DNA from: an uncultured Chromatiales bacterium
GTDB taxonomy: Bacteria > Pseudomonadota > Gammaproteobacteria > Steroidobacterales > BM003
Assembly: GCA_937128475.1 (NCBI GenBank)
Contig: CAKZML010000009.1
Coordinates: 1 to 33,914 of the forward strand
Direction of reading: 5' to 3'
DNA length: 33,914 nucleotides
Positions 5,117-17,912 of this stretch are shown one piece after another. The notes beneath the pieces are model-generated. The model made no database searches and was not told the origin of the DNA. It saw only the letters and a program-made list of their open reading frames with translations. The translations under genes were made by a program, and so were the position numbers. The stretch's first letter is position 1; each line of letters starts with the position of its first letter.

Positions 5117-5150
5117 AAGGCCCTGGCATAAACACCGGGGCCTTTTTCTT
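5117..5150 (+). terminator. Rho-independent terminator of the M16 gene
   Basis: AAGGCCCTGG pairs with CCGGGGCCTT (one G-T wobble, 8-nt loop) and is followed by TTTCTT. It begins 22 nt after the stop codon. Confidence 0.85.
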
Positions 5151-5180
5151 TCCGGGATGAGAAATCGCCGAATCCGGGGG

Positions 5181-5208
5181 CATATTCATCAAATATGAGG
5201 GAATCCCT
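5181..5208. repeat. Two adjacent short inverted repeats before the first binding-protein gene
   Basis: CATATT-N5-AATATG (5181-5197) abuts AGGGA-A-TCCCT (5198-5208), about 75 nt before the start at 5281. They are plausible operator sites for the binding-protein gene. No regulator is assigned. Confidence 0.3.
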
Positions 5209-5280
5209 GACAGATTTTTGCTGCGCTTGTGATGGATAATCCAGCCAGAACACAAAAAAGCCTTTGACAGGATATTGGGA

Positions 5281-6165
5281 ATGAGAACTGACTTCGTCAA
5301 CTATCAAGACTCATCGACCGATTCAATCTCACCCGTGGAGATTATCCCGGCCCCTGGCCTCAGGACAGGCTACCTGGCATTGACCCTGGGTTGTCTTTTG
5401 GCACTGCTGCTCGGCATCCCCCACACGGCGCGAGCCGAGGCCGGGGCAAAACAACCGTTTGTGATTACTGCCGACTACTGGTGCCCCTATACCTGCGCTG
5501 AGAACTCGCGAATGCAGGGCTTTGCCGTGGACATTACCAAGGAAATTTTCGAGGGTTACGGAGAAACGGTCGTCTACAAAGTCTTGCCTTTTAACCGTGC
5601 TTATTCGCAAATTGAAACGAGTAAATTTCAAATGGCAGTGGCCCTGGTGGACGACGAACAGAGATTACTGCTATTCAGCGAAGAAAGCCTGGCCGTGGAT
5701 AGGACTGCCATTGTAATGCGAAAAACCAAGGGCACTAACTACTCGGGTCCCGGCATGCTCGATGGACTGAAGGTGGGCACAGCCTCCGAGTACACTTATG
5801 ACGATGGTGGCCAACTGGATCAATACCTGGAGCAACGCAGAGTCGATCAAGATCGCATTATCGATATATTTAGCGACACTCCTATGAAATCGCTTTTGCC
5901 CATGCTGTTATCGGGTCGGATAGATGTTTTCCCTGAAAACATTGACGTGATCATGTACGTCGCAACCCGCGAAGGGGTATTGGATCAAATCAGCATTATT
6001 GATACCGGTCTCGGCAACACCCTGCACGGAGGATTTCCACGAACTGAGGAAGGCGCAGCCAACATGGCCAGGTTTGATGAGGGGATGCGGCGAATGCGTG
6101 CCTCAGGGCGTTTTGAGGAGATCATGTCGGCTTATCAGTTGGACAAGGAATCACGAGTTAAGTAA
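5281..6165 (+). CDS. Periplasmic solute-binding protein 1 (SBP_bac_3-like, WCPYTC type)
   Basis: Start 5281 is chosen over an in-frame TTG at 5275 because AGGA lies 8 nt before the ATG. The 294-aa product has an unusually long polar N-region (about 30 residues) before its hydrophobic signal segment, ending near TARAEA. The mature part begins ITADYWCPYTC and continues as a bilobed extracellular solute-binding fold (FAVDITKEIF, YKVLPFNRAY, LLSGRIDVF, then a TGLGN-LHGGF block). Paralogues follow at 8591 and 9686. No ABC permease or ATPase is nearby, so a sensory role is more likely than transport. The ligand is unknown. It is cut off from its paralogues by two minus-strand genes. Confidence 0.85.
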   Translation: MRTDFVNYQDSSTDSISPVEIIPAPGLRTGYLALTLGCLLALLLGIPHTARAEAGAKQPFVITADYWCPYTCAENSRMQGFAVDITKEIFEGYGETVVYKVLPFNRAYSQIETSKFQMAVALVDDEQRLLLFSEESLAVDRTAIVMRKTKGTNYSGPGMLDGLKVGTASEYTYDDGGQLDQYLEQRRVDQDRIIDIFSDTPMKSLLPMLLSGRIDVFPENIDVIMYVATREGVLDQISIIDTGLGNTLHGGFPRTEEGAANMARFDEGMRRMRASGRFEEIMSAYQLDKESRVK

Positions 6166-6203
6166 ATATCCACCCGCCTGGCTGCGCGAGTGTGGAAATC
6201 GAC

Positions 6204-6752
6204 TTACCAGGTAATGAGAAATCTACAAGTCTCGCCGCCATCCAGGCGCGACACATGACCTTGCTCCCAGTCCACTTTGCAGGTGGCGCTGATCGATGGC
6301 GGAAACTTCGCACACAGCGCACTGATAATTCCCAGGTCGAAATAGGGAGGATAGGGGTTGCGACATTCCATTATTGCCTGACGAGATTCGATAGCCGCCA
6401 GATCCAGGCGGTAATGCCCGATATCCCCACCCTTGTGATTGAGGTAATAGGCCTCATCCAGTGCTTCCATCGCCGAGCGAAAGTCTTTCACCGACGGGGG
6501 AAACAGGGCGTGATCGGGAATAGAGGTGCCAATGCTTCGTAGCGTGTAATCACCAAAGGCGTCAGTCACTTTCCCGAGAACGTTTAGCCATGACTGTTGC
6601 GGCACCCAGTCATCCGGCCCAACGCCACCTATACCCTCCTCGGTCATAAATTCTCTCACCCGGGCTTCATAGGCGGGCATGGCGTACACCACGACCAGAA
6701 CGGCCCTGCCAAGCACCTCCGCATTCGGTGAATACGCCTTATATTCGGCCAT
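6204..6752 (-). CDS. Unrecognised 182-aa cytoplasmic protein
   Basis: The start at 6752 is preferred because AGGGG lies 6 nt upstream; the longer open frame to 6896 adds 48 residues that look non-coding. There is no signal peptide or membrane segment. The N-terminus reads MAEYKAYSPNAEVLGRAVLV. The C-terminal half has ECRNPYPPYFDLG, then a final block with spaced cysteines (ALCAKF, ATCKVDW, ETCRFLITW). This ending is reminiscent of V4R/heme-NO-like ligand-binding domains that end in C-x(n)-W, but that link is weak. It lies downstream of the OYE-family gene on the same strand, 168 bp away, and converges with the first binding-protein gene. Confidence 0.7.
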   Translation of the reverse strand: MAEYKAYSPNAEVLGRAVLVVVYAMPAYEARVREFMTEEGIGGVGPDDWVPQQSWLNVLGKVTDAFGDYTLRSIGTSIPDHALFPPSVKDFRSAMEALDEAYYLNHKGGDIGHYRLDLAAIESRQAIMECRNPYPPYFDLGIISALCAKFPPSISATCKVDWEQGHVSRLDGGETCRFLITW

Positions 6753-6920
6753 CCATTTCCCCTGGCTCTTGAGATTCCATGAGTAGTGTTCCCCGGCATT
6801 ACGATGCTGCCGAAAACAATGCTCTATGCCAGATAATACATGAAAAGACCGTCGAGCCAGTTTGATTTGCGCCCGGCAAACCTTCTGGAGCGTCAAAACA
6901 TTCCAGGTGGCAGCACCTCC

Positions 6921-8153
6921 TTACCTGCGCCTCAACCACCGACGGTAGCGCCGGGTTTGTTGCAGCTTTCTCAGTTGATCCATCAACAGGGACATGCTGG
7001 GCGAAACACCCGGCATGGGTGGTTTGCCTACGCCCAATCTTCGCAACTGCCTCTTCACTATCGCCATGGTCCCAAGCGCCACCAGCGCCTTGTCCTTCCA
7101 CTTCACAGTCACTGGATTCACCCGGGCCTCCGGGTCTGATTTCCAGTCGTTCACCAGATGAGGGTTCATCGCCAGGGCCGTCGCGATGCCGACCATATCA
7201 ATACCCTGGTCGAGCACATGTTGGGCTACCGCCCTGCGCGTTATGCCGCCGGTGGTCATTACCGGCATTTTTGCCGCCCCGGCAATCCGCTGGGCGAAAT
7301 CGAGGAAATAGGCTTCACGAGCCAGCGTTTGACCATCTGTCGTGTGTCCCTGCATGGCCGGGCTTTCATAACTTCCACCGGACAACTCCACGAGGTCCAC
7401 ATGAAGGTGGTTCAGCATTTCCAGGACCCTGGTGGCATCTTTCTCGTCAAACCCACCCTTTTGAAAGTCCGCGGAATTCAGTTTCACGCCCACACAAAAT
7501 CCCGGGGCAACACTGGCTCTCACCGCCTGGATAATTTCCTTGAGGAACCGGGCCCGGTTTTCCAGGGAGCCACCCCATTTATCTTCGCGACGGTTGGACA
7601 AGGGGGACAAAAACTGCGAAATCAGGTAACCGTGGGCGGCATGAATCTGCACTCCGGTGAAACCCGCCTTCTCAGCCAGCGCCGCACTGGTGGCAAATCG
7701 CCCGATCGTTTCCATGATCTGGTCTTCGCTCATTGCAATCGGTTTGCCAAACATTCCCGAGTGTTTACCCAGGTCCAGCGGAATATCCGATGCAGACCAG
7801 ACATTTCCTTTCATCGTCGCGTAGACCTGGCGCCCCGGATGACTGAGTTGCATCCATGCCTGGGCACCCCCCGCTCGAATTGCCCTGGCCCAACGTTTGA
7901 ACGGTGCAATCACGGTCCCCTCTTCCAACACAACACCGCCCGGTCCGGTCATCGCCCTTCCGTCCACCATGACATTTCCGGTGATAATCAAGCCCGCGCC
8001 ACCCTGGGCCCACGAGGAATACAAATTCCACAAATCCCGTCCGGGCAACTGCCCCTCCACCGCCATATTTTCCTCCATGGCGGCCTTGGCAATTCTATTG
8101 GGAATAGATTGGCCATTCGGCAAATCAAGTGAAGCGAATAAATCCAGGCCCAT
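6921..8153 (-). CDS. NADH:flavin oxidoreductase, Old Yellow Enzyme family
   Basis: This 410-aa TIM-barrel flavoprotein begins MGLDLFASLDLPNG, as is usual for the family, with GAGLIITGNVMVD and QLSHPGRQ in the first third. The substrate-binding pair IHAAHGYL is followed by QFLSPLSNRREDKWGG, and the FMN phosphate site by MTTGGI near residue 300. Such enzymes reduce activated C=C bonds or 2-enoyl thioesters. It is the single-domain form, without the C-terminal FeS/NAD domains of 2,4-dienoyl-CoA reductase. GAGG 7-8 nt before the ATG supports the start. A short GC hairpin (6905-6918) abuts the stop but has no U tract. The substrate cannot be inferred. Confidence 0.9.
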   Translation of the reverse strand: MGLDLFASLDLPNGQSIPNRIAKAAMEENMAVEGQLPGRDLWNLYSSWAQGGAGLIITGNVMVDGRAMTGPGGVVLEEGTVIAPFKRWARAIRAGGAQAWMQLSHPGRQVYATMKGNVWSASDIPLDLGKHSGMFGKPIAMSEDQIMETIGRFATSAALAEKAGFTGVQIHAAHGYLISQFLSPLSNRREDKWGGSLENRARFLKEIIQAVRASVAPGFCVGVKLNSADFQKGGFDEKDATRVLEMLNHLHVDLVELSGGSYESPAMQGHTTDGQTLAREAYFLDFAQRIAGAAKMPVMTTGGITRRAVAQHVLDQGIDMVGIATALAMNPHLVNDWKSDPEARVNPVTVKWKDKALVALGTMAIVKRQLRRLGVGKPPMPGVSPSMSLLMDQLRKLQQTRRYRRWLRRR

Positions 8154-8248
8154 TGGTCGTCCTCAAGGAATCAAAATTAGACATTTAGTCCTCGTGTCAG
8201 CACCAGGTACTGAAAACGGGGAGCTAATGGTAACCCTCATGGATAAGA

Positions 8249-8275
8249 AACGGGAGCCAGGTTTCGCCTCCCGTT
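8249..8275 (-). other. Terminator-like hairpin in the OYE gene leader
   Basis: AACGGGAG and CTCCCGTT form a perfect 8-bp stem with an 11-nt loop. Read on the minus strand it is followed by TCTTATCC, so it could act as an attenuator about 95 nt before the OYE start, or be an operator. No minus-strand gene upstream would need it as a terminator. Confidence 0.35.
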
Positions 8276-8370
8276 GCATGGGAATTTCAATCTCCCCCAA
8301 ACAGCTAGCCGCCACCGACCCTGAACCGGTTTATCTTGGCAGACGAGTGAATTAGACGTAGATTAAGACT

Positions 8371-8397
8371 TTGATTGCCGTATTTTCTGATTATTAT
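8371..8397 (+). promoter_or_regulatory. Possible sigma70 promoter for binding-protein gene 2
   Basis: TTGATT (8371-8376) and TATTAT (8392-8397) are near-consensus -35 and -10 hexamers, but the spacer is only 15 nt. It lies in the 437-bp divergent gap 8154-8590, in an AT-rich stretch. Confidence 0.3.
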
Positions 8398-8414
8398 GTC
8401 TTGCTTGGGAGAAT

Positions 8415-8450
8415 GCTATACAAACGACCGGGATTGAGCCGGTTTGTAGC
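8415..8450. repeat. Imperfect inverted repeat upstream of binding-protein gene 2
   Basis: TACAAA, a CGA bulge and CCGG (left) pair with CCGG-TTTGTA (right) around a 7-nt centre, with GCTA and TAGC at the outer ends. It lies about 140 nt before the TTG start at 8591. It may be an operator or mRNA hairpin. The rest of 8451-8590 shows nothing clear. Confidence 0.35.
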
Positions 8451-8590
8451 ACTCTTGCCTCTACCAGCCAGAAATCGACTATTGCGCGAAATTTAGCCAG
8501 GGGATCAGAATTCTGTTACCAGGATCGATCAATAAATCAGGCAAACGAATTCGTTCAGGCCCACCGGGGCTGATCAGGGCGCTGTCCACC

Positions 8591-9463
8591 TTGCCGGGCT
8601 CCCGCCTGATAGTAAGCCTGCTGCTGATACCGGGCCTGATCAGCGGCGTTCAAGCCCAGGAGGCGACTGCTCCCTTACGTCTTGTCTCCGATCTGTGGTG
8701 TCCCTACACCTGTGAATCCGATGACGCCCAGCGCGGCATCCTGGTAGACATTGTCGAGGAAATTTTCTCGCAGCACGGTATTACGATCAGCTACCAGGTG
8801 ATTCCCTGGCAGCGTGCGAAACATTCGGTGGAGGCCGGACAGGCTGACGCTGCGCTCGGCCTTTCCAAAAATTATTCAGGCAGAATGCTAAGCAACACTG
8901 TCCCGCTGACTCATGACAGGACAGTCCTGATCTGGCGCAAGGGACAGGGCCAGCCCTACACCGGCACCAACGTGCTGGATGGCAAGAAAATTGGTATCGG
9001 GTACGCCATGATGTTCGATGAAGGTGGTGAACTTGATCAATACATCGAGTCGCGACTGGAAAAACACGAGCTAATTAGCGCCCTGTATATGAACAAGCAT
9101 ATTGAACATCTATTGAAGATGCTGCTGAGCGGCCGAATAGACGTCATAGTGGAGGACCTGGGTGCTGTGCAGTACCAGGTAAGCCAGGGAGGCCTGGATG
9201 AACTCAATGATGGTTTGAATTCATTTGATATTTCTGCGACGGGAAAAACCAGCGGTTTGTATGTGGGATTCACGCCAAACGCCAAGGGGCGGGAGAGCGC
9301 AAGATTTCTGGATGAAGGTCTGCTGCACATGAAGGACTCTGGGAGACTGGATGCCATCGTGAATTCTTACCGCAGTGCCGAACAGGTTGACCTCATACCT
9401 TTACCAGGGTCAGACCCGGGGCCAGGGGACCAAAGCAACACCCTCATCCGCCCTGACAAATAA
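8591..9463 (+). CDS. Periplasmic solute-binding protein 2 (WCPYTC type)
   Basis: This 290-aa paralogue starts at TTG 8591. No ATG or GTG is available in frame back to the stop at 8447, and the TTG begins a compact signal peptide (MPGSRLIVSLLLIPGL, cleaved near VQAQE). An AGGGCG about 10 nt upstream is a weak ribosome site. The mature chain begins LVSDLWCPYTC and has the same order of blocks as the other two (GILVDIVEEIF, YQVIPWQRA, LLSGRIDVI, YVGFTPNAKG). It carries a Pro/Gly/Asp-rich C-terminal tail of about 25 residues that the others lack. DNA identity with the neighbours is low, so the duplication is old. Confidence 0.85.
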   Translation: MPGSRLIVSLLLIPGLISGVQAQEATAPLRLVSDLWCPYTCESDDAQRGILVDIVEEIFSQHGITISYQVIPWQRAKHSVEAGQADAALGLSKNYSGRMLSNTVPLTHDRTVLIWRKGQGQPYTGTNVLDGKKIGIGYAMMFDEGGELDQYIESRLEKHELISALYMNKHIEHLLKMLLSGRIDVIVEDLGAVQYQVSQGGLDELNDGLNSFDISATGKTSGLYVGFTPNAKGRESARFLDEGLLHMKDSGRLDAIVNSYRSAEQVDLIPLPGSDPGPGDQSNTLIRPDK

Positions 9464-9482
9464 TCACCTAACATCACCAGGA

Positions 9483-9504
9483 GAAGATAAGTCTTCACTT
9501 TTTT
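9483..9504 (+). terminator. Weak terminator after binding-protein gene 2
   Basis: GAAGA-TAAG-TCTTC followed by AC and six Ts lies 20 nt after the stop. The stem is only 5 bp, so it is probably leaky. In the rest of the 222-bp gap I see only a small TACCTG/CAGGTA repeat. Confidence 0.3.
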
Positions 9505-9685
9505 ATTGATCAGCCCAGCCAACCCAGCTCGATACCTGCCCTGCTGACGGGACCTGGTACAGGTAGACTCAGAATAGACCCTGATGGCCCGAGTTTTTGC
9601 AGAGGTTAATAAGCTGGCTCTCTAACTGGAATCACTGAGACAGCAATCTACATTGCGAAGACAGTCATAAACCCTGAAGAAAATA

Positions 9686-10519
9686 ATGAAACTGAAACTC
9701 TTTTTAATAGGCATGTCTTTGCTTTTGATATCCGCTCACTCGCCGCAAGCGGCAAGCGACGGGCAAAGCGCCTTGGAAACCAGCATATCCATTACCGCCG
9801 AAATCTGGTGCCCCTACGCCTGCACTCCCGAATCCGAGAATCCGGGAATCCTGGTTGAAGTTGTCCGGGAAATTTTTCGCCAGCAAGGCATTGAGGTTGA
9901 ATACGGACTGATGCCCTGGCGGCGCGCACTGATGGAAACCGAAAAAGGCACCTCAGATCTAGTCCTCGGGGTAGTAACGGGAAATCGTGGAAGCCTTTTA
10001 CTGGATAAACGCGGGATGGGGGTTGATGAGACCATTGTCGTTGTACGCAAGGACTCTGACTTTGATTACCAGGGGCCAGAAAGCCTCAATTCCATGCGGC
10101 TGGGAGTAATAGCGAATTACACCTATGACAGCAATGGAGTACTGGACAGTTATCTGAAGGAGCGACGCCGGTTACATGACAGAATCGTAGTTATCTACAG
10201 AGACGAACCGATTAAGTCACTTGCAAACATGCTGTCTGGATACCGAATTGATGCGTTCCTTGAAAATCGTCAGGTTACTCTCTATGAGGGCAAGAGGATG
10301 AATTTTGGGGACAAAATCCGGATTATCAGTACTGGCCTGGGAGATACTGTCCATGTCGGTTTCACCCCAAATGACAGGGGCCGTAGAAACCTCGATATTT
10401 ATAACCGTGGGCTTACGAGATTACTGGAATCCGGCAAAGTCGATGAGATCGTCAAAAAATACGGTCTGGATGGAGTCCCCGCGGAGATCAAAGTAAAAGT
10501 TAATAACCCCTCTAAATAA
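9686..10519 (+). CDS. Periplasmic solute-binding protein 3 (WCPYAC type)
   Basis: This 277-aa paralogue has a typical signal peptide (MKLKLFLIGMSLLLISA, cleaved near QAASD). The mature part has ISITAEIWCPYAC, GILVEVVREIF, YGLMPWRRA and a TGLGDTVHVGFTPN block. It is closer to protein 1 than to protein 2 in the central region (compare ANYTYDSNG and ASEYTYDDGG, then DEPIKSLANML and DTPMKSLLPML). The gene ends 26 nt before the histidine kinase start, so the two are probably cotranscribed. That links this family to signalling rather than transport. Confidence 0.87.
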   Translation: MKLKLFLIGMSLLLISAHSPQAASDGQSALETSISITAEIWCPYACTPESENPGILVEVVREIFRQQGIEVEYGLMPWRRALMETEKGTSDLVLGVVTGNRGSLLLDKRGMGVDETIVVVRKDSDFDYQGPESLNSMRLGVIANYTYDSNGVLDSYLKERRRLHDRIVVIYRDEPIKSLANMLSGYRIDAFLENRQVTLYEGKRMNFGDKIRIISTGLGDTVHVGFTPNDRGRRNLDIYNRGLTRLLESGKVDEIVKKYGLDGVPAEIKVKVNNPSK

Positions 10520-10545
10520 CGTATCTCAAACCAATACCGGTCGCC

Positions 10546-13209
10546 ATGAAAAAAAGAAGCATCACATCCAGAATAAGTATTCTGATCATCATCTTCCTTG
10601 GAGTGGGTGTTTTCATTGCATTCCTGGCTAACGGTTGGGCAAGCGTCAAACAATTCAACGCAGCCTATGAGAAACGGTTGCAACTGGAAACCGAGGTATT
10701 GAGCCAAAGCCTTGCCGGGCCTCTTTGGTCGTACAACTACGATGCAGCGAAGACCATCTGCCGGGCATACGCAGCCCACACGGACGTTGTCCTGGTAAAA
10801 GTTACCGCAACGAGCACAAATGACCCGGTGTACAAGTTGTCCAAAGAAACCTCGATTGAGGTGTTCAAGGCAACCAAGGAAATTGTTTACGATGGAGAGG
10901 TCATAGGCGCCGTTGAAATCGGACTAAGCACGGAGACCCTGAGCAAGAACCTGAAACAGTCATTCTTTTACACTGTGTCACTCATGTTTGTTATTGGCCT
11001 TATTATCCTCGCCGGCATTCGATTTTCCCTGACACGATTAATTGAAAAGCCCATTGCCACTCTCGCAAATTGGGCGCAACAAATTGCCCAGGGCAACTAT
11101 CAAGCCGCAGCCGAAGGGTCAATGAACACCAAGGAACTTGCCCCAGTTGCGCGCCAGATCAAATACATGTCTGGGGAAATCGAGTCCCGAGAAAAGAAAC
11201 TCAACGACCACATTGCCCTGGAGGAAACTCTCTCCAGAATCCAGCAAGAGTGTATTGCATTCCGAAAATGGGATCAGGCCTATCGAGGGTTGCTCAAGGC
11301 AGCCATGAGCACGACCGGCAGTCCGTCTGGCTTGATCGCTGAAATGTCGATTTCGAATCCGGGCAAGGTCAGAGCGGTTCGAGCCTTCTTTAACATCCCC
11401 ACTGGCGGTCGCGGCGGAAACGTGCTCTCGCTCATGTGCGAACCGGCGATAGCATCCCCGGTTCCCACTATCGCGAACGATATACTGCACTTGCCCGAGA
11501 CGATCCGAAAAATTTCAGAAACCTCACCTATCTCGTCTTACGTTGCCATCCCTCTTCGGCGGGGCGGGGAAACCCTCGGAGTCCTGGTGCTGACCAATCG
11601 CAGTGGCGGTTACGATCAGCGCCTCCTTGATTACCTTGAGCCCCTTATACGTGGCGCGAGCAACATGATTGCAGCGATTCGGGATGTAAGGGCCCTGCGG
11701 CAAAGTGAGGATATGAATACCGCCATCCTTAATGGAGCGTTGACCGGGATTGTCACGGCGACAATTGACGGAGCCATTCTGGACCTGAACCCTTTCGCGC
11801 TAAAAATGTTTCGTTGTAGCAGACAGGAAATAATTAACAAGAATGCCGTCGACGTTTTCATGTCGGAGAGTTACCGGGCGCAAACCCGAACTGCCCTTGC
11901 CGCCATCAAAGCGAACGGAACTAGTGAAATACTTGGCAAGACTCTCAATATCGAGGTCTGCCGCCTCGACGGAAGTGTGTTTCCCGCCGAGCTTATCCTG
12001 ACTCTGCATCAGAACAGATACCTACTTACTGGCGTGATGCGGGACGTATCCGAGGAGAAAAATGCGGAGCGCGCCCTCAGGCGAGCCCAAAAGATGGAGG
12101 CAATCGGTCAGTTAACCGGAGGAATTGCCCACGACTTCACAAATATTCTTGGCATCATCATTGGCAACCTGGAGTTCCTGATGCGCCCGGAATTAGTCGG
12201 AGGCAACCCCAAAGAACACCTGGACATTGCGTACAAGGCAGCGATGCGTGCAACAGCCCTGACAAAGCAGCTATTGAACTTTGCCAGGACCAAACCAGCC
12301 GATGCCAAACCAACAGACGTAAACATGATAATCAGCGGCATGAACAACCTGCTGGCGCGCTCGGTCACTCAGCAAATTTCCCTGCGTTACATCCTTGCAG
12401 AAGACCTGTGGAAGGCCAATATTGATCCTGGCGACCTTGAGGACAGTCTTCTGAATCTCGCAATCAATGCCAGGGATGCTATGGAAGGCGGCGGCGAATT
12501 GACTATCACCACTGAGAATCAGGTCATCGATGCAAATAGGGTTGGTTCTAATCGCGCCGTCCCAAAAGGACAATATGCAACACTTTCAATTCGAGACACC
12601 GGTTCAGGCATAAGCCAGGCAGACCAGGAAAAAATATTCGAACCGTTTTTCTCAACCAAGGACCGCGGGAAAGGCACGGGTCTGGGTCTGGCAATGGTAT
12701 TCGCATTCGTAGAGCGCTCTAAGGGCTACATCAAGGTAAATTCAAAGATAAATGAGGGTGCTGAATTCAAAATATTTCTGCCTAGACACAGATCAGAGGC
12801 CAACGAGAAACCTGACAGCCACACAACCCCATTCCCTGAGTTTCCCGAGGGAACAGAATGGGTCCTTGCAGTAGATGATGAAGTCGACCTCACGAATCTC
12901 GCGAAAGCAAATTTAAGCAGCTTGGGCTACTCTGTTTTGATAGCCAACAATGCTGCGCAAGCCCTCAAGATAATCGATTCTGACCAGCAGATTGACATAT
13001 TATTTACGGACACTGTAATGCCTGGCTCATTGAATGGTATTGAGCTCGCAGAAGAAGCTCTAAAGCGAAGACCTGAGCTTAAGGTGTTGATAACCACAGG
13101 ATTTACAAATATAAAAGGCAAGAGACCGGGTGGCCAAAAAGTATTGAACAAGCCTTACACCAAGGCAGAACTGGCTGACCGAATTCGCAGAGCACTGGAC
13201 TCCCATTAA
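10546..13209 (+). CDS. Membrane hybrid sensor histidine kinase (periplasmic sensor, HAMP, GAF-like, PAS, HisKA, HATPase, REC)
   Basis: The 887-aa protein has membrane helices at about 9-29 and 140-160, enclosing a periplasmic domain of about 110 residues with the GPLWSYNYD motif (58-66) common in Cache/PAS-like sensors. A HAMP-like linker follows (about 160-215), then a GAF-like region (about 225-380), a PAS (about 385-500) and HisKA with the phosphoacceptor H529 in GGIAHDFTN. The ATPase boxes are complete: [10 protein letters not shown] (637-646), [14 protein letters not shown] and GKGTGLGLA. The C-terminal receiver has DD777-778, D822 and K869. All catalytic residues are present. It lies immediately after the third binding-protein gene and 45 nt before the REC-EAL gene. 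No HPt domain is visible in the window, so the route of any phosphorelay is unclear. Confidence 0.93.
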
Positions 13210-13254
13210 GAGTCAGGTGAAAGTATCCTTACCAGGTCGGAAGGGGGCGAACTA

Positions 13255-14448
13255 TTGAACGAGACAAGCAGACCCAATCTTCTGATTATTGATGACGAAA
13301 CAGAGATGGGTAAATACATCAGTCTGGTCGCAGAAGAAACTGGATTTTCGGCGACTTCCATTGATGACACGAGCAAGTTCGAATCGGTTTATGACCGAGA
13401 TATTTCGGTAATCATCGTGGACATGTTCATGCCGGGAAGGGATGGCGTTGAGATTCTCCGCTTTCTTGCTGAAGACCGGTTCCGCGGACACATTGTTGTC
13501 ATCAGTGGCTTCGACTCCAGCGTGCTGCATTCCGCAATGGAACTGGCCAATGCACATGGACTGAAAATACTGGGCGCATTATCAAAACCCATACTATACA
13601 ACGACATACAGAGATTACTGCTTAAGGCATTAGACGATTTCTCATCCGACGATCCCACCCTGGCGGGTGAAATCATCCTGCCGACCCGCGAAGATTTCAT
13701 CATGGGCCTCGAGCGACTGGAATTTGAGCCCTATATGCAACCCCAGATCGATATCAAGACCGGGCGCCTGCTGGGGGTCGAAGCACTGGTACGATGGATT
13801 CACCCTACCCTTGGTATACAAACACCCGACATCATAATCCCCATGGCGGAGAACGATGGCCTGATGGATGAATTGACCTATCAGATGCTGGAAAAGACGG
13901 TCAACTGGATCAAAATCTGGAAGGATGCCGGCCTGAGCCTTCGGGCCAGCGTTAACATTTCCGCCTCGACAATTATCGACCTATCACTTCCGGAACTGGT
14001 TGATTCCTATCTGCGAGCCAAGAAACTTCCTCCCGGACACCTTGCCCTCGAGGTGACCGAACAGACATTGATGGGGCAACTGTCAACCTCGCTGGACATC
14101 CTCACCAGGCTCAGGCTGAAGAACATAGAATTATCAATCGACGACTTCGGCACCGGTCACTCGTCATTGATTCAGTTGTACCGGGCACCATTCTCCGAAA
14201 TCAAGATGGATCGTTCTTTCGTCTCAAAGGCAACTGAGCAAAAAGAAGCCCGGGCGATCGTGGAAATGACGGTTGCTCTAGCCCATAAGCTGAACATGAA
14301 GACAGTTGCCGAGGGTGTTGAAGACTCGGCTACTATGGATTTGCTGAGGGAGCTGGGATGTGATGTTGCCCAGGGCTATTACATCGCCCGCCCAATGCCA
14401 CCGGAAGAACTCCTGGACTGGGAACGGGCGCGCTCCGGCACAGCATAA
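13255..14448 (+). CDS. Response regulator with EAL c-di-GMP phosphodiesterase output
   Basis: The start is TTG at 13255, supported by AAGGGGG 7 nt upstream. The 397-aa product has an N-terminal receiver with the acidic pair D13-D14, phosphoacceptor D56 (IIVDMFMPGRDG), S84 and K111. An EAL domain follows from about residue 147. The active-site set is intact: EAL at 176-178, N in SVNIS, E in LEVTEQ, the DDFGTG loop, K in EIKMDRSF, E in VAEGVED, and Q in AQGYYIARPM. It should hydrolyse c-di-GMP to pGpG under control of phosphorylation. The kinase just upstream is the obvious partner. There is no GGDEF domain. Confidence 0.95.
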   Translation: MNETSRPNLLIIDDETEMGKYISLVAEETGFSATSIDDTSKFESVYDRDISVIIVDMFMPGRDGVEILRFLAEDRFRGHIVVISGFDSSVLHSAMELANAHGLKILGALSKPILYNDIQRLLLKALDDFSSDDPTLAGEIILPTREDFIMGLERLEFEPYMQPQIDIKTGRLLGVEALVRWIHPTLGIQTPDIIIPMAENDGLMDELTYQMLEKTVNWIKIWKDAGLSLRASVNISASTIIDLSLPELVDSYLRAKKLPPGHLALEVTEQTLMGQLSTSLDILTRLRLKNIELSIDDFGTGHSSLIQLYRAPFSEIKMDRSFVSKATEQKEARAIVEMTVALAHKLNMKTVAEGVEDSATMDLLRELGCDVAQGYYIARPMPPEELLDWERARSGTA

Positions 14449-14477
14449 AGACAATCCCCGCTCACCCGACTCCATAA

Positions 14478-14513
14478 AAAAACCACCAGCCCGATCTCGG
14501 CCTGGTGGTTTTT
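14478..14513. terminator. Bidirectional rho-independent terminator
   Basis: AAAAACCACCAG pairs perfectly with CTGGTGGTTTTT, with an inner CCG/CGG step and ATCT loop. A and T runs on both sides let it serve the EAL gene and the convergent Zn-ribbon gene. Confidence 0.9.
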
Positions 14514-15185: not shown

Positions 15186-15242
15186 GCTCTACTTCGTTAA
15201 ACATCATCCAACCGGGGCTGGATTCACTTCAAAAAACTCATT

Positions 15243-16892
15243 CTAAGGCTGGACTCCTCCATTGAACGGATTATCGGTCCAGCCCAGGGCGTTCCAGTCG
15301 ACTTGACCGGCATCGTGGCAGTCTGAACAGCCCGATCCACCACCGAAGCCAAGAGCCATCTCTTTTGGAGCGACTTCGTGATTCACCTGGAGGTACATCT
15401 CGGTGGGCACGAACTCATATGCACCGCTATACGTCTGACCGGTGTACGCTGCGCCGTCCTGCAGTGCCAAGTCCCAATCGTACTTTGCCCAATACGGGTT
15501 TGGTCCACCCTTCATACCGAACAGATGGGGAACCAGCATGGTGTTGTTGTTGGCATCTGCCACCTGGTTACCAATCATCTTCTTGAACGGATAAATCATG
15601 GCATCAAGATCTGTGTAATCCGCAACCGGGGCAGACATTACTACCGGGGTCGACACATACTGATCATTAACATTCATCATGATTTTTTGTGTCATGCCAT
15701 TGTGGAAACGAAGTTCGGGCCGCACATTCAAGCCCCAGACAAAAGTGCCTTTCTTCTTGTCATAGGTGGGTTTGCCAGTGATGGGATCAACAGGAATCGG
15801 ATCGATATCCTGACCGGCGTCTTCCCAGTACCATTCCATCTTGGTAGGCAGTTTCCTGGCGATAGCCGGAACGTGACATACCTGGCAGGCCAGTCTCTGG
15901 TGATTGGCAACCAGGTCCTGGGCCGCCGTTCCGGCATGAATGCTGGCACGATCACCGTGGCAGTCAGCGCATTGTTTCATCGCGCCTTCTTCAACCGAAT
16001 GGAAAGGCATACCACCGATACCGTGAGACAGCATCTCACCGTCAGGACCGCGTTTCACGCCATGGCAGGCTACGCAATCCAAATTGGCGCCGTCGGTACC
16101 CATGTGAACGTCGTAATCCCTGGTCGTTGCCACCAAGTCTGTTGACAGATCACCGTGCTTCACATTGTCACCACCACCGGCAGCAGCGTGACAGGCAAGG
16201 CAGTTTTGCCGGACGGGGGATCCAGAATTGTCCGCCACGCTTTGTGCCACCACTTGAAGGTCTACCGTAGGATCTGGTAACCCAGCTGTTGTGAGACCCT
16301 TCTTATAGGTGCCTGACTGGTCATGACAAACCAGGCAGTCCACGTTCTTCGGGTTTGAGAAGTCGTATGTCGCATCTGCCAGGCCGTAACCGGCATGGCA
16401 CTGGGAACAACGTCCTTCATTGGTCGGGACCGCAATACAGAAGTTATTAATAAAATCTACTTTGCCGTGAATTTCAGCTTCATAGCCTTCAACGTTTGAT
16501 GCAACGCCACTCCACGTAAAATGACCGGTGGTTATGAAGTCGTCACCAACCTTGCCGTGGCAATCAAGACAACTTGTTGTTCCTTCATAAGTATTGTCTG
16601 TGAAATAGACTTTATGTAGTGTCTCGGGGTCGCTTAACGGCGGAACCAAGACCACACAATCATTCACATCAACGACGCCATCTCCATTGATATCCTCATC
16701 CGGCAGATCCGCCACGCCATTCTGGTTGGTATCCCAGCAACTTAAGCCGTTACTACCATCTGCCCCGGCAGAACCTGCAGCACCATCGGACCCATCGGAG
16801 CCATCACTACCGCACGCAACCAGCCCGGCAGCAAGCAACCCCACTAGCAATATTCTAAATTTTGGGAATCTTCCTAACATTGTATTTTCCAT
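15243..16892 (-). CDS. Octaheme c-type cytochrome lipoprotein (OTR/multiheme family)
   Basis: Eight CxxCH heme sites are visible: CLDCH, CSQCH, CLVCH, CLACH, CVACH, CADCH, CQVCH and CSDCH. The last is near the C-terminus after a gap of about 170 residues. The N-terminus is a lipoprotein signal (GRFPKFRILLV, lipobox LVAC), then a GSDGSDG collagen-like linker. Next is an EF-hand/dockerin-like pair (DTNQNGVAD and DINGDGVVD) before the first heme. The arrangement resembles octaheme tetrathionate-reductase-family cytochromes, which reduce sulfur or nitrogen oxyanions; the substrate here is not proven. Starts at 16901, 16892 and 16880 are all possible. The frame is open to 17009, but that would bury the signal peptide. 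The divergent neighbours are sulfur-handling genes. Confidence 0.88.
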   Translation of the reverse strand: MENTMLGRFPKFRILLVGLLAAGLVACGSDGSDGSDGAAGSAGADGSNGLSCWDTNQNGVADLPDEDINGDGVVDVNDCVVLVPPLSDPETLHKVYFTDNTYEGTTSCLDCHGKVGDDFITTGHFTWSGVASNVEGYEAEIHGKVDFINNFCIAVPTNEGRCSQCHAGYGLADATYDFSNPKNVDCLVCHDQSGTYKKGLTTAGLPDPTVDLQVVAQSVADNSGSPVRQNCLACHAAAGGGDNVKHGDLSTDLVATTRDYDVHMGTDGANLDCVACHGVKRGPDGEMLSHGIGGMPFHSVEEGAMKQCADCHGDRASIHAGTAAQDLVANHQRLACQVCHVPAIARKLPTKMEWYWEDAGQDIDPIPVDPITGKPTYDKKKGTFVWGLNVRPELRFHNGMTQKIMMNVNDQYVSTPVVMSAPVADYTDLDAMIYPFKKMIGNQVADANNNTMLVPHLFGMKGGPNPYWAKYDWDLALQDGAAYTGQTYSGAYEFVPTEMYLQVNHEVAPKEMALGFGGGSGCSDCHDAGQVDWNALGWTDNPFNGGVQP

Positions 16893-16917
16893 AACAAACA
16901 TCCATTTCGACAGTGGA

Positions 16918-16954
16918 AAACAAAAAAAAAGGACGCCTGCGATTGCAGGCGTCC
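16918..16954 (-). terminator. Strong intrinsic terminator inside the cytochrome leader
   Basis: On the minus strand GGACGCCTGC-AATC-GCAGGCGTCC is a perfect 10-bp stem followed by nine Us, G and four more Us. It lies directly before the cytochrome start candidates (16901, 16892, 16880) with no minus-strand gene upstream. It is therefore probably an attenuator or the end of a small RNA. Confidence 0.85.
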
Positions 16955-17387
16955 CATCTTGAATTCTAGGCGCATCTTTAGGGCGCATCCGTGCAGGGGC
17001 AGAAGACATCCTGTGTAAATCCTTTTACCGAGGTCCGAGCCATTTCTTAGCTTGCCCTAATTTAGACCTTTCTAATTTCGTGATGCAATCCGTACTTTCC
17101 CTAGTGCGCCACCGAAGCTCCATTGGATCGATTCCAGCTAGCAAATCACTCACACCCATCCTGACCACCCATTGCATTCGCAACAGGTCAGCCAAAACCC
17201 CCTTTTCCCTTCACACACCAGCCTGGGCGGCGCCCTCGAAACATTCGCCTCTTGTCAGAACAGACTTGATATGAAGAGCATTAATCCGCCATTCTGTTCG
17301 TCCTGAATGATCAAAGCCGGTGGCGCGCTGACCATCAGGCAAGTACATTGAAAAGCCTTGGCGAAATTCTGTGGAGACGGACAAGCA
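16955..17387. promoter_or_regulatory. Divergent intergenic region and cytochrome leader
   Basis: This region of over 400 bp separates the cytochrome (minus) from dsrE2 (plus) and must hold both promoters. On the minus strand GUAAA-AGGA-UUUAC (17028-17015) is a small hairpin. It is followed by three related stretches (GATGCGCCC, GATGCGCCT and GATGGGACGCC) leading into the terminator. I could not find a convincing FNR, sigma54, GEMM or other known riboswitch signature. Confidence 0.4.
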
Positions 17388-17912
17388 ATGAGTGATGCTC
17401 ATATCGACAACAGCCCGGTCAACCCGGCGAAACCAGCCAAAAGCATGTCGATCATCGTTACCAAGGGAACCCTGGACTGGGCCTACCCTCCATTCATCCT
17501 GGCCACCACTGCGGCGGCCATGGGCATGAATGTAAGCATGTTCTTCACATTCTATGGTCTGCCGCTGTTACTCAAGGACCTGGATCTAAAACTATCTCCC
17601 CTGGGTAATCCGGCCATGAAAATGCCCCTGGCCGGCATGCACATGGGTATGCCAAATATGGCATCGATGATTCCCGGAGTAGATGCGGCAGCCTCAACCA
17701 TGATGAAAAACCTGATGAACAAGAAGGGAATCGCCTCTATCCAGGAACTTCGCGAACTTGCCCTGGATGCAGAGGTTAGACTGATCGCCTGCCAGATGAC
17801 CATGGACCTGTTTGAATACGGCCTGGATGACATGATCCAGGGACCCGAACTTGGCGGAGCGGCCACCTATATCGAAGTCGCCAGCGGCTGCGACATCAAT
17901 CTCTTCGTATAA
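17388..17912 (+). CDS. dsrE2: DsrE2-type sulfur-trafficking protein (DsrE/F/H-like)
   Basis: The 174-aa product starts at ATG 17388; the upstream in-frame TTG at 17358 is less likely. A polar N-terminus is followed by the DsrE-like fold: MSIIVTKGTLDWAYPPFILA, then AAAMGMNVSMFFTFYGL, with a Met-rich loop (KMPLAGMHMGMPNM). The C-terminal part RLIACQMTMDLF has the conserved cysteine, followed by GGAATYIEVASGCDINLFV. DsrE2 proteins are membrane-associated partners of TusA and rhodanese in sulfur-oxidising and dissimilatory sulfur metabolism. They are thought to relay protein-bound persulfide sulfur. The tusA gene 52 nt downstream fits. A small hairpin (17923-17941) lies between them. Confidence 0.88.
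   Translation: MSDAHIDNSPVNPAKPAKSMSIIVTKGTLDWAYPPFILATTAAAMGMNVSMFFTFYGLPLLLKDLDLKLSPLGNPAMKMPLAGMHMGMPNMASMIPGVDAAASTMMKNLMNKKGIASIQELRELALDAEVRLIACQMTMDLFEYGLDDMIQGPELGGAATYIEVASGCDINLFV

Follow-up and report, generated by a model that had tools for sequence, protein, structure and literature searches.

Do periplasmic binding proteins encoded beside a membrane kinase feed a transporter, or do they inform the kinase? The question is raised by the window, the whole stretch of 33,914 nucleotides from an uncultured Chromatiales bacterium that was analysed here. A preliminary description of this DNA had placed in it three binding proteins (BPs) with a WCPYxC motif, a hybrid histidine kinase (HK) and a REC-EAL regulator, and had proposed that the three proteins present different ligands or redox states to the one kinase. 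Open reading frames (ORFs), Pfam searches and motif strings put all five genes where they had been described:

5148..6912 (no strand): segment with BP1 and the 230-aa ORF, absent from sister genome G003
5275..6165 (+): BP1, periplasmic SBP_bac_3 protein with WCPYTC (ATG at 5281, TTG at 5275; Pfam; hydrophobic segment at residues 34-48)
6204..6896 (-): 230-aa ORF between BP1 and BP2, missing together with BP1 from G003; uncertain whether it belongs to the system
6921-8153 (-): Old-Yellow-Enzyme (OYE) homologue, between BP1 and BP2
8208..14476 (no strand): segment BP2-BP3-kinase-EAL, absent from sister genome G003
8591..9463 (+): BP2, periplasmic SBP_bac_3 protein with WCPYTC (ORF, Pfam, alignment)
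9686..10519 (+): BP3, periplasmic SBP_bac_3 protein with WCPYAC, directly upstream of the kinase gene (ORF, Pfam, AF2 model)
10546..13209 (+): hybrid histidine kinase, in the order TM, small periplasmic domain, TM, GAF, PAS, HisKA, HATPase, REC
10630..10962 (+): periplasmic sensor domain of the kinase (residues 29-139), PDC/LapD-like and CHASE5-like
13255..14448 (+): REC-EAL response regulator, predicted c-di-GMP phosphodiesterase, motifs intact

The described spacings are exact by ORF coordinates: 26 nt lie between BP3 and the kinase gene and 45 nt between the kinase and REC-EAL genes; BP2 and BP3 are 222 nt apart. What had been overlooked is that two minus-strand genes, the 230-aa ORF and the OYE homologue, separate BP1 from BP2, and because of them BP1 is placed outside the operon, not co-transcribed with it. 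Promoter and terminator scans returned nothing above chance expectation. A near-perfect 17-bp inverted repeat, resembling a bidirectional terminator, marks the right border of the gene set at 14478-14513 and is retained in G003 at the empty junction. The 230-aa ORF has no Pfam or NCBIfam match; as an impression only, its C-terminal half may recall V4R/HNOB-like small-molecule domains.

All three binding proteins pass the Pfam cut-off for SBP_bac_3 (PF00497, 26.4 bits), with 42.3 bits for BP1, 34.5 for BP2 and 38.3 for BP3. They have W-C-P-Y-x-C in common, and identity to BP3 is 37% for BP1 and 31% for BP2. The AF2 model of BP3 (pLDDT 88) predicts the two-lobed fold of periplasmic binding proteins with an apparently intact cleft; its top PDB match is the LAO-binding protein (E 8.6e-15), and fourth among the fold matches is 3h7m, a kinase fused to a periplasmic binding protein. 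A genome search found only these three binding proteins, all in the cluster. Reading the ligand from canonical amino-acid-binding residues was tried and rejected: in the alignment of A1/A3 with GlnP the usual carboxylate-binding arginine is not conserved in register, and for that reason no ligand class is assigned.

In the kinase, transmembrane helices at residues ~10-28 and ~140-158 flank the periplasmic domain, and Pfam identifies GAF, PAS, HisKA, HATPase and REC domains. The H-box, DTGSGI, GTGLGL and the REC aspartate are intact as in-frame motif strings. Scores against the LuxQ model (78.9 bits, cut-off 1200) and the TorS model (91 bits, cut-off 676.5) fall far below both cut-offs, and the core resembles CckA-type kinases. 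The final ORF carries REC and EAL domains (EAL E 7.6e-67). Its catalytic residues had been called intact, and indeed ExLxR (as EALVRW), N, E, DDFGTG, K, E and Q (in QGY) are all found in frame. The best NCBIfam match is PvrR (NF052596; 246.6 bits, under the equivalog cut-off of 580); the PvrR type is alike in its REC-EAL architecture and differs in its partner kinase.

Does this gene set behave as a unit? The binding proteins and the sensor are absent from G002 and G003, which belong to the same genus, and from G001, of the same family. G003, whose M16 peptidase is 92% identical to that of the window, retains in order the genes for homoserine dehydrogenase, M16, OYE, a Zn-ribbon protein, DsrE and YeiH, and lacks three pieces: 5148-6912, 8208-14476 and 15225-17262 (octahaem cytochrome). 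The M16, OYE and Zn-ribbon genes are kept around and between the missing pieces of the cassette. BP1 thus shares its presence or absence with the kinase operon, even with a retained gene (OYE) between the two. Third-position GC is 0.53-0.62 in the cassette genes versus 0.65-0.71 in most flanking genes, which is consistent with acquisition; gain here and loss in G003 are both possible. The five genes look like one transferable sensing cassette. The third missing piece carries an octahaem tetrathionate-reductase-family cytochrome gene at 15243-17009 on the minus strand (TIGR04315, 413 bits, above cut-off), followed by a DsrE2 gene at 17358-17912.

A pattern scan across 84,980 species genomes turned up 15 relatives of the binding proteins. 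The preliminary description had called for a search for co-occurrence of this subfamily with a kinase and REC-EAL, and the arrangement BP-BP-kinase-REC-EAL, in the same order, was found in L004, a Woeseiaceae MAG (contig JAHEFE010000053.1). Identity to the window is 55% for the sensor segment, 55% for the whole kinase and 65% for the EAL protein; the L004 contig starts inside its first BP gene, and a third BP is possible there. In a tree of 34 binding proteins, the three from the window and the two from L004 form one clade (100/100), within which BP1, BP2 and L004_a form a subclade (97/93). An arrangement of two or more BPs to one kinase is therefore older than the divergence of the two lineages. 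By its order in L004 and its co-absence in G003, the linkage of binding protein and receptor is conserved across lineages.

From locus to locus the partners vary. A hybrid HK adjoins the BP in the window, L004 and L076, and in five Bacteriovoracaceae related BPs adjoin HKs, the BP gene following a plain HK gene on the same strand at ~40 nt or closer. Elsewhere the BP gene lies directly downstream of a chemoreceptor gene: by 37 nt in L070 (3159-6284), where the receptor is an MCP ending in a PilZ domain, and by 21 nt in L099 (6021-8305), also an MCP. A kinase, chemoreceptor or EAL gene is found within two genes of 7 of the 18 WCPYxC BP genes examined in other genomes. The loci examined do not show the contrary pattern that had been named beforehand, in which homologous binding proteins would always lack the kinase or come with ABC permeases. 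Of the distant WCPYxC BPs, roughly half stand alone, for example in Vibrio and Marinobacter. In Vibrio L008, L010, L011 and L012 the solitary gene occupies the same place amid flagellar genes, with neither receptor nor transporter beside it.

To what class of receptor do these proteins belong? Modelled with AF2 (pLDDT 85), the window sensor is similar to WalK PAS domains and to 4u64, a periplasmic domain of the LapD type (E 2.7e-4), and the genome holds one sensor of this type only, in the cluster. The Pfam search did not list CHASE5 for it at E up to 5, and the genome has no match to PF17149, the CHASE5 family. Compared by profile with CHASE5-positive sensors, the window sensor gave E 1.9e-6; for the periplasmic part only, with the transmembrane helices removed, single comparisons gave 7e-6 for CHASE5 and 2.8e-5 for CHASE8. 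The domain misses the Pfam cut-off, and CHASE8 is nearly as close without the membrane helices; on these profiles it is CHASE5-like and cannot be filed as CHASE5. The periplasmic parts of the BP-adjacent receptors align over the transmembrane helix, a W-x-x-D segment and a glycine before TM2, except that the L070 receptor is without the W and was compared by eye only. Pfam CHASE5 is matched by 7 of the 15 sensors of these receptors.

The association extends beyond the WCPYxC subfamily. With one SBP profile and one distance rule for both sets, an SBP gene was adjacent in 18/40 CHASE5 loci, drawn by Pfam from 299 genomes, versus 0/40 CHASE8 loci (Fisher p = 3e-7, an optimistic value because loci of one genus are not independent). 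A few more CHASE5 neighbours match other SBP families, or SBP_bac_3 under the cut-off. Receptors with CHASE5 and adjacent SBP_bac_3 genes are like the cassette in SBP-receptor order and in the small W-D periplasmic domain; they differ in that the window sensor is under the cut-off and in that their SBPs are mostly not WCPYxC proteins. No relevant paper on CHASE5 was found in the open-access literature, and in the literature searched CHASE5-type sensor domains have no known function.

As a rule, SBP_bac_3 proteins work for ABC transporters of polar amino acids, and among solved structures the nearest are proteins of this kind. The three BPs might therefore be orphan transport proteins that feed an amino-acid ABC permease encoded elsewhere, the kinase and EAL genes being mere neighbours. 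The permease family that normally works with SBP_bac_3 is TIGR01726 (polar-amino-acid, HisM/GlnP-type). The observation that the cluster holds no ABC gene holds genome-wide for this family: TIGR01726 has no match in the genome, which is 96% complete, and the same search matched 12 of 14 control genomes. A transport role was rejected on this result. In Bacteriovoracaceae the HK-BP pair does lie between two ABC operons, but the ABC genes are on the other strand and, as read from the sequence, appear to have binding proteins of their own. An ABC ATPase motif was found within two genes of none of the 18 WCPYxC BP genes in other genomes, and the BPs and the kinase are co-conserved. All this makes the transport explanation very unlikely. 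The directly established observations, namely gene content, its conservation as a cassette, co-presence and co-absence, no detectable polar-amino-acid permease and recurrent pairing with one receptor domain class, support the earlier suggestion that the BPs would serve the kinase rather than a transporter. The suggestion that redox states are the signal fared differently. The WCPYxC proteins might report periplasmic oxidation to the kinase through their cysteine pair, which is conserved in all WCPYxC relatives, and the multihaem cytochrome gene nearby (also absent in G003) could be seen in that light. Yet a count over 43 homologues that carry a W-x-P-[YFL] motif gave 38 with the two cysteines, 5 with neither and none with a single one (the pattern scan had selected for this motif, the profile search had not). 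Because the cysteines are always both present or both absent, a structural disulfide is expected, and a redox switch is the less likely reading; no further mature cysteine is present in BP2 or BP3, the third cysteine of BP1 lies within its leader, and the cleft fold of the BP3 model seems intact. Redox sensing is hardly probable at all.

We consider it likely, from gene content and comparison, that the five genes form a stand-alone periplasmic sensing cassette. Each BP would close on a small, probably amino-acid-like ligand and, once loaded, would dock on the small PDC/CHASE5-like periplasmic domain of the kinase. Docking would shift the kinase/phosphatase balance, and phosphate would pass to the REC domain of the neighbouring REC-EAL protein and alter its c-di-GMP phosphodiesterase activity, with the kinase's own REC serving as a sink or brake. 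We infer the docking, the ligand class, the phosphotransfer route and the sign of the output; the three BPs may bind different ligands, and signalling may lower rather than raise c-di-GMP. Counting against the cassette are the many solitary WCPYxC BPs, the position of BP1 outside the operon, a sensor under the CHASE5 cut-off, and a sample of ~6% of the genome (~142 kb in addition to the window) in which no GGDEF protein was found. Adjacency does not in itself mean interaction: PA0602/AgtB-AgtS and PA4985-AruS are adjacent, yet no binding was seen between them (PMC11113362). Only BP3, perhaps with BP2, might be read by the kinase, BP1 being a duplicate for another receptor or for the OYE/230-aa pair: BP3 alone sits 26 nt from the kinase gene, and BP1 lies in a separate segment beside the two minus-strand genes. 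However, BP1 is missing along with the kinase in G003 where OYE is retained, L004_a, which groups with BP1 and BP2, adjoins the kinase gene in its own genome, and the genome of the window holds no further sensor of this class. We therefore regard such a division of labour as unlikely, if worth keeping in mind. Less probable still, though not negligible, is a CckA-like route in which the kinase, being hybrid and CckA-like in its core, signals via an Hpt protein and REC-EAL is phosphorylated from another source. Hpt domains occur in the genome only inside open frames of 898-1121 aa, and the kinase and REC-EAL genes are adjacent in two lineages. Because no stand-alone Hpt protein was detected in the genome, direct transfer from HisKA to REC-EAL is the preferred route within the cassette.

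How does such a cassette compare with known systems? In LuxP-LuxQ and TorT-TorS a periplasmic binding protein acts on a hybrid histidine kinase. The principle of a BP-fed hybrid kinase is shared with the cassette, whereas the SBP folds and sensor domains are other ones and the output of the cassette is an EAL regulator. Closest in function is NspS-MbaA of Vibrio cholerae and Sinorhizobium, in which the gene of an orphan periplasmic BP lies directly upstream of that of a membrane c-di-GMP enzyme and the ligand state sets the c-di-GMP level (PMC8079147). The linkage of a BP to a c-di-GMP enzyme is alike; NspS-MbaA has one BP of another SBP family and a single membrane GGDEF-EAL protein, whereas the cassette has three SBP_bac_3 proteins, a hybrid kinase and a soluble REC-EAL. 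SBP_bac_3 domains are fused to c-di-GMP enzymes in RmcA and CdgH (PMC8846402, PMC5431781). These proteins and kinases such as 3h7m have SBP_bac_3 domains controlling c-di-GMP enzymes or kinases, as proposed for the cassette, but fused to the receptor, whereas the SBPs of the cassette are three proteins in their own right.

Activation of many receptor types by SBPs has been reviewed (PMC9602780). Signalling from BP to receptor is thus accepted, but characterised cases are few and adjacency alone has misled before. The case here is stronger than adjacency: the permease family is lacking genome-wide, two separated pieces are absent together, and the pairing recurs with one domain class. What is new is that one kinase is paired with three paralogues, that the output is REC-EAL and that there is a link to a CHASE5-like receptor. 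We tentatively extend this to the joint proposal that CHASE5 and closely related domains serve generally as the module on which orphan binding proteins of the SBP_bac_3 type dock, in kinases as well as in chemoreceptors and c-di-GMP enzymes, and that in this cassette three paralogues compete for one such domain, so that the periplasm is where several ligands are integrated, ahead of a single c-di-GMP output; taken as a whole, we hold it to be possible but somewhat more probably wrong than right. If true, a periplasmic domain class gains a testable role, and the cassette would offer a simple case of one kinase that reads several binding proteins and controls c-di-GMP breakdown.

Three other Pseudomonadota (L079, L081 and L085) have a conserved cluster of a large cytosolic hybrid kinase, a WCPYxC BP and a CHASE5-like kinase. 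In L079 and L081 the order is HK-BP-HK-REC-HD-GYP, and L085 is arranged likewise with the HD-GYP motif not matched. With the cluster of L079 and L081, the same binding proteins may have a second, parallel way of acting on c-di-GMP.
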